Shown: piece after piece, positions 11,650 to 23,861 of the stretch
Position numbering within the stretch: position 1 is the first letter of the stretch
Layout: each line of letters begins with the position of its first letter
From: Thermoprotei archaeon
GTDB lineage: Archaea > Thermoproteota > Thermoprotei > Gearchaeales > WAQG01
Direction: 5' to 3'
Length of the DNA: 64,000 bases
Assembly (NCBI GenBank): GCA_038881895.1
Contig: JAVZOV010000002.1
Location: forward strand, 62,001-126,000
Translations under genes and position numbers: made by a program
Notes under the pieces: model-generated
Databases searched by the model: none
What the model was told of the DNA's origin: nothing
The model's input: only the letters and a program-made list of their open reading frames with translations

Positions 11650-12303
11650 TCATATGTTCCATTTTTCCATTTTATATGACATTTCCCAGAACATGTATTC
11701 ATATTTACTAGCAATCATAAATATTTTTTCTAGGGTATCGTAATTAGTATAGGGTAAAGTATTTATGATGTCTTTTAGCATGTTTACTAGGTTTTTGTAT
11801 TCTTCGGAAAGGTATGTTCTCGCCCAATCTTTATATATATCGTTTGTGTTGTTCTTGAGCTTTTCTTTATGATGTTCTGCAATTTCTTTATATGTCCAAA
11901 AACACGGTAGTAATGCTACTAAACCTTCAATGGGCGTTCCAAGAGAACATATCCTTACAAGAAAGTTCATGTATGCAAAATTTGTAGGAGCTGGCTCAGT
12001 TTTGATAACATCATCAATCTTCAGATTAAGCTTTTCTAACAATGCTAAATAATTATCCATTTCAGTAGTCATATCCATGTAAGCTATTTGAAGTGTTTGT
12101 TTAGCAATATTAAAATCTAGTTTAACAGATATTAAAGAAAAACAACGTGATATTTCAACAAGGTAGTTATAATCCTGTATTACATAGTATTTAAATTTCT
12201 CCATCAGTAATTCTCCTTTATAAAGCTCTAATACAAAAGGATGCTCAAAAATTTTCCTCCATATTGTATCGGCCCTATTCCTCAATTTTTCTGTAAGCAT
12301 CAT
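11650..12303 (-). CDS. TenA-type aminopyrimidine hydrolase, Cys-containing
   Basis: A 217-residue TenA/THI-4 protein. Residues matching the active site of Bacillus TenA are present: D44 in IQDYNYL, C134 in LLPCFWTYKEI, and a Glu at about 207 in MFWEMSY. Such enzymes salvage thiamine breakdown products by hydrolysing aminopyrimidines to HMP. The start ATG overlaps the stop of the upstream TenA paralogue by 4 nt (ATGA), so the two are translated together and may form a mixed oligomer. No other thiamine gene is close by. Confidence 0.87.
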   Translation of the reverse strand: MMLTEKLRNRADTIWRKIFEHPFVLELYKGELLMEKFKYYVIQDYNYLVEISRCFSLISVKLDFNIAKQTLQIAYMDMTTEMDNYLALLEKLNLKIDDVIKTEPAPTNFAYMNFLVRICSLGTPIEGLVALLPCFWTYKEIAEHHKEKLKNNTNDIYKDWARTYLSEEYKNLVNMLKDIINTLPYTNYDTLEKIFMIASKYEYMFWEMSYKMEKWNI

Positions 12304-12950
12304 AAATACGCCTCCTTGTAAATTGCATCCCAGAACATGAGTTCATATTTTTGAATAATTCGACTAACATTTTTTAAGTCTTCAACATCATCCAAATACC
12401 TCTCAATAATTTTAGCCCCCTTAGTTTCTGACTCACCATATGGTTGCGCAAAAAGATCTAGAAACCCAGTTTCATTAATACCGTACTTATTTTTAAGTGC
12501 ATTAGAAAGTTTTTTACAGTTACTACCCCAAACCGGTAAATTAATTATTAATGCTATAGCTTGCATTCCTGGATTTCCATAAAGTGCTAACCATGCCAAA
12601 TAATGAGTGTATGCGACAGCCTCTGGTATAACTTTTACGTTTTTAAGAGACAAAACGTCTAGCCCAAGTGATTTTCCCATTTTCTCTAATAATTTTAATG
12701 CATCACCATCACTCTTGGATAATTCTAAGAAAAATTCAAACTCATCATAATACCTTGCGCCTGATGCCATTAATGCAAGACTACGAGCATCATGATACAC
12801 AATGTAATATTCTTGAGAAACAAATGTTTTGAATGCAGCTAATGGTAACTCACCGTTTTCAGCATCAATTATAAATTTATGATTCAATATTAATTGATTA
12901 ACACTTTTTAATTCATCCCGAATAATTTGGATTAAATCCTCTGCTTTCAC
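12300..12950 (-). CDS. TenA paralogue with altered active site
   Basis: A 216-residue TenA-fold protein, first gene of the pair. Compared with its neighbour and with canonical TenA_C enzymes, the three catalytic positions are changed: Asp to Glu (SQEYYIV, about residue 47), Cys to Val (NLPVWG, about 140), and Glu to Asp (MFWDAIY, about 206). It could be a TenA_E-type enzyme, a regulatory subunit, or an enzyme with another substrate. The start is GTG at 12950, preceded by GGAGGT about 10 nt upstream. It is cotranscribed with the Cys-containing paralogue. Confidence 0.8.
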   Translation of the reverse strand: MKAEDLIQIIRDELKSVNQLILNHKFIIDAENGELPLAAFKTFVSQEYYIVYHDARSLALMASGARYYDEFEFFLELSKSDGDALKLLEKMGKSLGLDVLSLKNVKVIPEAVAYTHYLAWLALYGNPGMQAIALIINLPVWGSNCKKLSNALKNKYGINETGFLDLFAQPYGESETKGAKIIERYLDDVEDLKNVSRIIQKYELMFWDAIYKEAYL

Positions 12951-17640: not shown

Positions 17641-18168
17641 TTGCTTACATGCGAAATATGCGGCAAACCTATTAAGGGTCAACCCATCACTATTTTGATA
17701 GGAGGAGCAAAATTAACAGTCTGCAATGAATGTTCACGATATGGTACACCAATAAAGACCAGACAAATTTCACAAACCCAAATGACACCAGCACAACCTA
17801 GAATACAGTCAAAACCGAGTAGCAAAACAACTCAAAGAAAATTCGAAAAGGATATTTTTAATGAGAATATAAAAGTTATTGATGAATACCCATTACTAAT
17901 AAAATCCGCCAGAGAAAGATTAGGATGGACCCAAGACTTTTTAGCCAGTCAACTAGGTGAAAAGGTTTCTGTAATAAAAAAGATTGAAACAGGTTCCATT
18001 GTTCCTAGCATTCAACTAGCAAGAAAAATAGAAAAAGTACTGGGCATCCCTCTCATCGAGAATATTCCTCCCGTTACGAATCTAAGCCAAAATTCTGTGC
18101 CAGCAGATTTAACATTAGGTGATATAGCAAAACTTAAAACGCCTAAAAAGACTAATGAATCAAAATGA
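17641..18168 (+). CDS. mbf1: Multiprotein bridging factor 1 (MBF1)
   Basis: A 175-residue archaeal MBF1. A zinc ribbon opens the protein (CEICGKPI, then CNECSRYG at about 28-35), followed by a polar linker and a Cro/C1-type HTH at about 80-137 (ARERLGWTQDFLASQLGEK, then IKKIETGSIVPSIQLARKIE). Archaeal MBF1 associates with ribosomes and the transcription machinery. The start is TTG at 17641, preceded by GGTGTAA. Its stop overlaps the Trm56 start by 4 nt. Confidence 0.92.
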   Translation: MLTCEICGKPIKGQPITILIGGAKLTVCNECSRYGTPIKTRQISQTQMTPAQPRIQSKPSSKTTQRKFEKDIFNENIKVIDEYPLLIKSARERLGWTQDFLASQLGEKVSVIKKIETGSIVPSIQLARKIEKVLGIPLIENIPPVTNLSQNSVPADLTLGDIAKLKTPKKTNESK

Positions 18169-18701
18169 AAATTTTCGTGTTCAGATTAGGGCATAGACAC
18201 GAGCGGGACAAAAGAATAAGTACACATTGCGCATTAGTAGCAAGAGCGTTTGGTGCAGATGGTATTATATTCGATACTGTCGATGAAAAAATAGAAAAGA
18301 AAATCCATGATGTAGTAAACAGATTTGGTGGTCCATTCACATTAGAAATGGGCGTTTCATGGAAGAACTTCATTAAGAAATGGATTGAGAACGGAAATGA
18401 AGTAATACACCTTACAATGTACGGCCTTCCACTACCATCCGTAATAGATAAGATAAAAACTAGCAATAAGGATAAATTAATAATAATTGGGGCATCAAAA
18501 GTACCTAGAGAAATTTATGAAATGGCAACATATAATGTTTCAGTGACAAACCAGCCTCATAGTGAAATAGCAGCCCTCGCAGTATTTCTCGATCACCTAT
18601 TTGAAGGCAAAGAGTTTTACAAAACTTTCACCAACGCTAAAATCCAAATCATACCATCAGAACGTAGAAAAAAGATAATTAATATGAAAACTAAAAAGTA
18701 A
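18165..18701 (+). CDS. trm56: tRNA (cytidine(56)-2'-O)-methyltransferase
   Basis: A 178-residue SPOUT-class methyltransferase. The start MKIFVFRLGHRHERDKRIST is typical of aTrm56, as are the FGGPFTLEMGVSW region, the LTMYGLP motif, and IIGASKVPREIYEMATYNVS with NQPHSEIAALAVFLD, which form the knotted SAM site. The enzyme 2'-O-methylates C56 in the T-loop of archaeal tRNAs. It overlaps MBF1 by 4 nt (ATGA) and precedes TFE. Confidence 0.93.
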   Translation: MKIFVFRLGHRHERDKRISTHCALVARAFGADGIIFDTVDEKIEKKIHDVVNRFGGPFTLEMGVSWKNFIKKWIENGNEVIHLTMYGLPLPSVIDKIKTSNKDKLIIIGASKVPREIYEMATYNVSVTNQPHSEIAALAVFLDHLFEGKEFYKTFTNAKIQIIPSERRKKIINMKTKK

Positions 18702-18736
18702 CATTTGTTGAACCTAACTAACATACTACATTAAAA

Positions 18737-18749
18737 GTTAAATATTTTA
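18737..18749 (+). promoter_or_regulatory. TATA-like box of the TFE gene
   Basis: gttaaatatttta is centred about 30 nt before the ATG at 18773. This gives a leaderless message and supports that ATG over the TTG at 18764. Confidence 0.5.
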
Positions 18750-18772
18750 GATTAAATAGTAAATTGAGCAAA

Positions 18773-19321
18773 ATGTCAAGATCAGAAAATCAAGCGAGAT
18801 TCAAATCATACATATCAAAACTAGCTAGAACATTTGTAGGACCAGTAGCAGAACCAGTAATCCTAGCACTATCAGAAAGAAGAGAAACCACAGAAGAATG
18901 GTTAATAAAAAGAACTGGACTCAAACTCAGCGTAATAAGAAAAGTACTCTACGAACTCTTCGACGTAGGCATTGTAAAATATCGAAGAGAAAAAGAACCA
19001 GACACAGGATGGTTCACATATTATTGGAGCCTAGACTATGAAAACCTAGCTAATGTGATACACAGACGAAAAAAATTCGTCCTCGAAAAACTCAAAAACA
19101 GACTAGAATACGAAAAACAAAACACATTCTTCATATGCCCAAATCACCCCGAAAAAAGATACACATTCGATGAAGCATACGATCACAGCTTCAAATGCCC
19201 AGAATGCGACACAGTCCTAGAAACCCAAGACAACTCCGCAATCATTAAATTTATAGAAAACCTAATGAAAAAAATAGAAACTGAAAGCCAAACAACAACA
19301 ATCTCAATAGATGACCCATAA
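18773..19321 (+). CDS. tfe: Transcription factor E (TFE alpha)
   Basis: A protein of about 182 residues with the TFE layout: an N-terminal winged helix (about 10-95, ETTEEWLIKRTGLKLSVIRK) and a C-terminal zinc-ribbon region. TFE helps open promoter DNA with TBP, TFB and RNA polymerase. The ribbon is unusual, because the first ligand pair reads CPNH (Cys-x2-His) and the second CPEC. The acidic end follows. It is probably leaderless from the TATA box at 18737, and no Shine-Dalgarno site is seen. It closes the MBF1-Trm56-TFE group. Confidence 0.92.
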   Translation: MSRSENQARFKSYISKLARTFVGPVAEPVILALSERRETTEEWLIKRTGLKLSVIRKVLYELFDVGIVKYRREKEPDTGWFTYYWSLDYENLANVIHRRKKFVLEKLKNRLEYEKQNTFFICPNHPEKRYTFDEAYDHSFKCPECDTVLETQDNSAIIKFIENLMKKIETESQTTTISIDDP

Positions 19322-20757: not shown

Positions 20758-21079
20758 GCACAAATTTGAAAAACTGAGTAAAAGAGGGATGTTCAACAAA
20801 TCTAGAAAACATAATCGAGATGTAGCAAAGAGTGATTGAAAAATGATATAATCATTCGTTGTTTATAGATCTGGTGTTGTACTCCTCAATCCAAAGAACT
20901 CTACGTGCTCCAGGTGTGGGGTGGTGATTGCCTCGAAAGGAGCAGACATTTAAGAAGAGTCACATAAATGACTCTAACCGGGGTTTAGAGAGTGATGACA
21001 AACCATTGATAAACCCTAGAGGTGATTGAGCCTGATGGCGGCCAAGGTTCACACATGCAAATACAGACCAGAACACTAA
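20758..21079 (+). pseudogene. TnpB pseudogene, C-terminal half
   Basis: One frame reads KFEKLSKRGMFNKSRKHNRD and VAKSD, then a stop at the expected Trp, KMI, another stop, SFVVYRSGVVLLNPKNSTCS and RCGVVIASKGADI. This is TnpB up to the first half of its zinc ribbon (C-x2-C). After a disrupted stretch the shared tail MAAKVHTCKYRPEH closes it. The second C-x2-C and DRD motifs are lost. The tail is homologous to that of the relic at 14597-14738. Confidence 0.75.
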
Positions 21080-22455: not shown

Positions 22456-23141
22456 GAACTCTTATTTTGTTATATGAATATAGAGATCATCTAATAAAAA
22501 TGGGATGCCTGCATAAATTATATGAAAATTTCATGCTTTTATGTTCATCAAGATAAGAATAGTACTTGTAGTATTTGTATACGCATAACTAGATAAAGGA
22601 CAAGCCAGAAGAGATATACCTTAAACCAATGATAGTTATGGAGGATGCTCTTCAAGACAAGAAAGATATCAAGGAAATATTCATTATACCTTGCTGATGT
22701 AATAGTGCTCAATATATTATAGTGATAATAAACTAAAAACTATTGGTAAAGTGTATGCTTTATAAGTTTCTAGATGCACGATTGTTTAAAACCTACCTTG
22801 ATGACAGTTACATGTTCAGCAGTAAAGATAATCAAGAAAGTTCAAAGTAATTGATGCAAATAACTGTTTACAAATTGTTTAAGAAACATAACAATATTAA
22901 TTAAATATTATGTTTTAAGTTTTGTATTATTTAAGATATATTCTAATGGTTTATTAAATATTTTATGAATATTCTATGAAAAAGCTGGATAATTTATTTA
23001 AATAGTTCATGATGAATTTATATACTACTACTAATATATTAAATTTGAGAAAAAATGAGCTATAGTATTAATAACAGAATTATACGCTTTATACTATTTA
23101 TTTGTCATTATGCTCTAATCCTTCAATAAGGGTGATGATAA
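22456..23141. other. Long intergenic region upstream of TFB
   Basis: 686 nt, very AT-rich near the TFB gene, with many TATA-like boxes (for instance around 22898-22912 and 23017-23041). Positions 22652-22727 read MLFKTRKISRKYSLYLADVI before a stop, which loosely resembles the N-terminus of an IS4/IS1634-type transposase, but the stretch is too short to be sure. No zinc-ribbon coding sequence for TFB is present upstream. Confidence 0.35.
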
Positions 23142-23861
23142 ATGAAAATGAGACAGAATAAAGAATTTGAACACGTGAAATTATTACCTAACTCAACTTC
23201 ATTGCAGGATGCAAGAACAAAAGTAATTACAGATGAACAGAAAGAAAGTATTAGGATTGCAAATAAAGCCGCTTTTAAAAGAAATTTAATGTGGGCAAAG
23301 GATGAGATTGAAAAGGTAGCAGGTAAACTAGGATTAATACAACTGATAAAAGATGAGGCGCTTTTAATTTATAAAGAAGCTGCTGAATATAAGCTTACGC
23401 ATGGTAGATCCATACCTGTTGTTGCTGCAGCATCTCTTTATGCTGCGTGTAGGAGAAGAGGTTTGCCGATAACACTTGATGAGATAGCTGAATATAGTGA
23501 AAATAGTCGAAAAGAAATAGCGAGTTGTTATCGAGTGATTATAAGAAGTGTCAAGATAAGGCCTGACATTCCGAACCCAGTAATCTATGTTGAAAAAATA
23601 GTAAAAACACTAAATCTTAACCCTGAAGTACAAAAAGATGCATTGGACATAGTAACTAAGGCTAAAGAAAAGGGATTAATTGCAGGTAAAGATCCAGCAG
23701 GGTTCGCAGGTGCCGCAGTTTACATAGCATGCTTACAACACAGACAAGAAATAGTACAGAAGGAAATTGCCATTGCAGCACAAGTTACTGAAGTTACAAT
23801 AAGAAGCAGGTATAAAGAATTAATGAAGAAGCTTGGAATAGTGATACAGAATCCATTATAA
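23142..23861 (+). CDS. TFB paralogue without zinc ribbon
   Basis: A 239-residue protein with two cyclin folds of TFB/TFIIB. The first runs from about 50 (AKDEIEKVAGKLGL, AAASLYAACRRRGLPITLDE, SENSRKEIASCYR). The second starts about 145 and ends in EVTIRSRYKELMKKLGI, the BRE-reading HTH. Usual TFBs are about 300 residues and start with a Cys4 zinc ribbon that docks to RNA polymerase; here the first 45 residues hold no Cys at all. It could compete with the main TFB or act at special promoters. ATG with GGGTGATG upstream. Confidence 0.88.
   Translation: MKMRQNKEFEHVKLLPNSTSLQDARTKVITDEQKESIRIANKAAFKRNLMWAKDEIEKVAGKLGLIQLIKDEALLIYKEAAEYKLTHGRSIPVVAAASLYAACRRRGLPITLDEIAEYSENSRKEIASCYRVIIRSVKIRPDIPNPVIYVEKIVKTLNLNPEVQKDALDIVTKAKEKGLIAGKDPAGFAGAAVYIACLQHRQEIVQKEIAIAAQVTEVTIRSRYKELMKKLGIVIQNPL

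Follow-up and report, generated by a model that had tools for sequence, protein, structure and literature searches.

We identified a 239-aa TFB paralogue without a zinc ribbon in the genome of a Thermoprotei archaeon, at positions 23142-23861 (+) of the window, the whole 64,000-nucleotide stretch of DNA that was analysed. The reading that we find best supported, and to which we give about an even chance, is that this ribbonless TFB is a duplicate of the classical TFB1 of the same genome that is deficient in recruitment, occupies TBP-promoter complexes and competes with TFB1. We infer all three parts of this reading, namely the binding, the failure of recruitment and the competition.

The gene was defined from the ORF list, Pfam, NCBIfam and codon analysis. 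An earlier note on this DNA had described a complete gene with a good Shine-Dalgarno site, and both parts of that description hold: the reading frame is intact from an ATG start, and a Shine-Dalgarno-like GGGTGA occupies 23130-23135 (+), and 6 nt separate it from the ATG. The codon immediately 5' of the ATG is an in-frame TAA. Codon scoring gives the gene's own frame 0.354 per codon and both other forward frames about -1.05, and at the three codon positions the gene differs from TFB1 by 0.377/0.305/0.564, as purifying selection on the protein would produce; on these two grounds we take this to be a real gene. It sits on a 438 kb contig of an assembly (G000) of 1.75 Mb that is 97% complete.

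Both cyclin folds, and the lack of Cys in residues 1-45, are as the earlier note had read them from the translation. The Pfam TFIIB repeat (PF00382) matches two stretches of the protein (E 5e-40), Pfam gave no match to the zinc ribbon (PF08271, Zn_Ribbon_TF), and the first Cys is residue 103. A missing Cys4 motif does not by itself mean a missing ribbon domain, because the TFB1 ribbons at L119, L139, L144-L147 and other Sulfolobales/Desulfurococcales loci have only one Cys per pair (CPPDK...CTETGEV). The NCBIfam PRK00423 alignment begins only at profile position 107 of 312, and the reader and linker motifs GPEWRAF, IDW..KDA.GK and RLRKW were absent from the protein in TFB alignments; the B-linker is either lost or unrecognisable. 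Residues 1-26 (23142-23219) have no recognisable ribbon, reader or linker homology and are predicted by AlphaFold to be disordered (pLDDT < 50). An extended first helix and the first cyclin repeat follow at residues 31-137 (23232-23552) and the second cyclin repeat at residues 145-231 (23574-23834), including the BRE-recognition helix EVTIRSRYKELMKKL at residues 217-231 (23790-23834). The AlphaFold model has a confident two-cyclin core with pLDDT mostly above 90. Among solved structures, archaeal and human TFB/TFIIB cores are nearest, and by fold the PDB entry that matches best is 1d3u (TM 0.85 by target), the core of P. woesei TFB in its complex with TBP and BRE/TATA DNA.

Contact positions were read from a gapless phmmer alignment to full-length human TFIIB, in which the TFIIB number equals the query number plus 65, and both the TBP- and the BRE-contact positions are kept. 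The equivalents of G153 and R154 in the first repeat and of V283 and R286 in the recognition helix, which we take to be the BRE contacts of human TFIIB, are all retained. At the TBP-contact positions R169 and K189 are kept and K188 is conservatively replaced by R. The mutations R169E and R169E/K188E reduce TFIIB-TBP binding and so define a TBP-binding surface (PMC6004067). Of 76 near-invariant TFB1 columns, 56 are kept. The core changes include R128S (TFIIB position 193) and, in the recognition helix next to the R286 equivalent, N222S; with these and similar changes the affinity for TBP or BRE may be altered.

The zinc ribbon of archaeal TFB docks on RNA polymerase and recruits it (PMC7289017; PMC2246294), in agreement with the earlier note, and through the BRE the second cyclin repeat determines orientation (PMC7289017). 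Because the TBP and BRE contact positions are kept, binding to TBP-BRE with competition is the best-supported reading. The core would most likely still bind TBP on TATA DNA and read the BRE, and without ribbon, reader and linker it would not dock on RNA polymerase. BRE and TBP function without ribbon function would be expected to give an unproductive TBP-TFB complex, with which the ribbonless TFB would occupy promoters in competition with TFB1. The effect would be to damp transcription, either in general or at a subset of promoters set by the altered BRE helix and by the paralogue's own expression level. The core of a TFB also touches RNA polymerase, so recruitment might not be abolished. TFS4 of Saccharolobus offers a precedent for a basal-factor paralogue that became an inhibitor (PMC5715097), as an analogy of working only, since TFS4 has an unrelated fold and target and acts on RNA polymerase.

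In favour of competition, the genome offers two full TFBs to compete with and one TBP to compete for. A search for full-length TFBs found two with Cys4 ribbons (PF08271), the classical TFB1 (321 aa, C5:109k) and a divergent TFB2 (306 aa, C2:293k); together with one TBP and one TFE-alpha, these make the ribbonless gene an extra TFB, the third in the genome, and not the sole TFB that the earlier note had considered it might be. No free-standing TFB ribbon was found in the genome above the Pfam cut-off, which leaves no candidate partner for a split TFB at that level; one short sub-threshold match looks ribosomal and eS27-like by eye. TFB1 is directly followed by an NMNAT-like gene and lies on a different contig from the ribbonless TFB. 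After TFB2 come a 138-aa gene that looks TFE-beta/RPC34-like by eye, though Pfam gave no match, and then an RlmE-like gene, an order present in both genomes of the family (L045:2246-3581 (+), L037). In most crenarchaea RPC34 is co-transcribed with a TFB paralogue (PMC2770514), and this neighbourhood is reminiscent of that.

In the best tree of cyclin cores the ribbonless TFB is sister to its own TFB1, with a support of only 81/57. The two are 59% identical over the core, and their branch lengths are 0.98 and 0.056, so that the ribbonless branch is about 17 times longer. This grouping with TFB1 on a long branch fits a lineage-specific duplicate of TFB1 that would have lost its N-terminal part and then changed fast under constraint. 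Also against the preferred reading of an unproductive TFB1 competitor, conservation of the gene in a second genome was not seen, and the support of 81/57 for descent from TFB1 is modest. A viral or plasmid origin was considered and set aside: neither phage records nor viral contigs yielded a relative of the protein. A family alignment brought up viral TFBs, all bearing ribbons save one cut by a contig end, and plasmid matches stayed below 60% identity; the listed ones were TFBs of haloarchaea or Thermococcus.

We sampled about 125 Thermoproteota genomes, comprising 61 genomes (our own plus 60 relatives, most of them from its class) and 64 spread over the phylum, with short frames as the criterion, which misses any ribbonless TFB whose N-terminus is long and unrelated. 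Every other short TFB checked in the set of 61 has a ribbon, save in the order of our archaeon. The set of 64 gave about 210 TFB matches, with up to eleven TFBs in one genome, and among its short frames the sole complete ribbonless one outside the order is a weak match in G219, a 230-aa weakly TFB-like protein (L164:1221-1913 (-)) in a single-contig genome of another family. Ribbons were present in the other short TFB frames examined (G010, G015, G022, G025, G026, G033, G075 and G119), and those of G170 and G221 were at contig edges or broken. In the one same-family relative, G001, the short TFB was rejected as a relative, being cut by a contig end and lying in the TFB2 neighbourhood; this assembly is 86% complete and is without even TFB1, so the absence of the ribbonless gene there is uninformative.

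With the ribbonless protein alone as query, no related loci were found. Of the five genomes of the order, four carry ribbonless TFB-like cores, which are of three kinds. Besides the gene described here, one kind consists of tandem genes directly downstream of TFB1, a 214-aa protein in G002 (Centralia_MAG_457, L038:2249-2893 (-)) and a 210-aa protein in G003 (CPBay_Spr30G08_23, L039:2776-3408 (+)), and these two were the only cases of an adjoining ribbonless TFB among 80 named archaeal TFB loci. Each adjoins the end of TFB1 to within a few bases and precedes an NMN-adenylyltransferase-like gene, a location that the ribbonless TFB described here does not share. They are likewise two-cyclin cores without a ribbon, about half identical to each other and more diverged, with 43% and 32% identity to ours; K/F replaces the G153/R154 pair in them, and the N-terminal extension is missing altogether. 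The best tree separates them from our gene, but uniting them with it in one clade gave a p-AU of 0.096 and was not rejected, which also counts against the preferred reading. A third, very divergent ribbonless TFIIB-repeat kind, of 198 and 208 aa, is found in G002 and G004 (L040:222-818 (+), L082:78-704 (+)).

The divergent intergenic region upstream of the gene (22456-23141) is 686 nt long with 25% GC, against 34% for the window, which bears out the long AT-rich upstream region of the earlier note; by an approximate gene list it is the longest divergent gap and the third longest of all gaps in the window. The special regulation that the earlier note suggested on this ground would be a conjecture. 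A TATA-like TTTATACT at 23088-23095 (+), close to the gene, is a plausible candidate archaeal promoter, with transcription predicted to start about 25 nt downstream. A sigma-70 promoter scan was discarded, since it is not applicable to archaea and its result matched shuffles. A zinc ribbon is missing from all six reading frames of these 686 nt. A tblastn comparison of TFB N-termini with the surrounding 2.7 kb gave only short, weak matches at chance level, the best of which (20903-20959) has a CxxC reminiscent of the end of a TnpB transposase remnant. The short stretch at 20888-20953 (+) reads NPKNSTCSRCGVVIASKGADI before a stop and resembles the zinc-ribbon tail of a TnpB/OrfB transposase remnant. 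Its intact relatives may be three ribbon-bearing frames of about 410 aa at other sites in the genome (C1:164k, C1:419k, C3:372k). Further upstream, 17641-19321 holds a cluster of an aMBF1-like HTH protein with a Cys4 N-terminus, aTrm56 and TFE-alpha, so that two basal-transcription proteins sit a few kb from the ribbonless TFB. Two adjoining TenA/THI-4-like genes (by eye) overlap by a few bases at 11650-12950 (-).

The ribbonless TFB could instead be a gene-specific repressor or platform that binds TBP-BRE at few promoters with an altered BRE preference, or a DNA- or TBP-binding adaptor for another regulator. The N222S change in the recognition helix and the other core changes, the separate locus with its long AT-rich divergent upstream region, and the promoter selectivity of many archaeal TFB paralogues (PMC7289017) are in keeping with such a role, but the main BRE and TBP contacts are unchanged and give no clear sign of a new specificity, and we consider it unlikely. 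We are somewhat more sceptical of a positive co-factor that stimulates TFB1-dependent initiation or recruits polymerase otherwise, through TFE or core-RNAP contacts. The TFE-alpha gene (18764-19321) lies 3.8 kb upstream of the ribbonless TFB, and the truncated TFB3 of Sulfolobus activates transcription in trans with TFB1 (PMC7289017). That protein is the reverse case, with a ribbon and without the helix-turn-helix (PMC2246294), so the analogy offers no route to RNA polymerase, and TFB1 and the ribbonless TFB would need the same face of TBP. A decaying duplicate without present function, for which presence in one genome only and the long branch (0.98 against 0.056) might speak, has a small chance: the 239 codons have stayed free of stops through roughly one amino-acid change per site, second positions have diverged about half as much as third positions, and the key contacts, the good Shine-Dalgarno site and the coding score are all in place. 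That a full TFB was truncated by an error in assembly or sequencing is scarcely credible, since beyond the lack of a sighting in a second genome nothing speaks for it, whereas the coding-frame score, the lack of any ribbon remnant upstream and the merely chance-level tblastn matches make an error or frameshift unlikely, the in-frame stop adjoining the ATG, the Shine-Dalgarno site and the 438 kb contig count against it, and the N-terminal residues match no TFB linker.

Compared with canonical archaeal TFB (the P. woesei core in 1d3u and 1ais, and TFB1 of this genome), the ribbonless TFB has in common the two cyclin repeats, the BRE-reading helix-turn-helix and the TBP-contact residues, but it lacks the zinc ribbon, the B-reader and a recognisable B-linker and evolves far faster. 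The TFB3 proteins of Sulfolobus (sso0280) and Thermoproteus are likewise shortened extra TFBs beside full-length ones in Thermoproteota. Sulfolobus TFB3 has kept the ribbon, with an abbreviated core and no BRE helix-turn-helix (PMC2246294; PMC3189178), whereas the ribbonless TFB has the reverse set. The earlier note's statement that some archaea keep truncated TFB paralogues is thus borne out for this opposite truncation; for the ribbonless kind, a search of the open-access literature, with most subscription journals outside it, found no report in archaea. Among eukaryotes, Arabidopsis AtBRF5 is a natural member of the TFIIB family that is also without the N-terminal zinc domain; it differs in having a linker and a single cyclin repeat and in belonging to the Brf family (PMC7865254).

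Conservation of the zinc ribbon has been reported for every TFB, archaeal or eukaryotic (PMC2246294). Ribbonless TFB cores may recur in this order (three kinds, five genomes) as a dedicated class of anti-initiation factors that occupy promoters, and be the first natural TFBs that bind TBP-BRE without recruiting polymerase, a wider proposal that we make tentatively and with more doubt than belief. If a natural TFB that only binds promoters does exist, archaea could switch promoters off through the basal machinery itself. The ribbonless TFB would offer a simple test of TFB paralogues as repressors, beside their role as alternative initiators.
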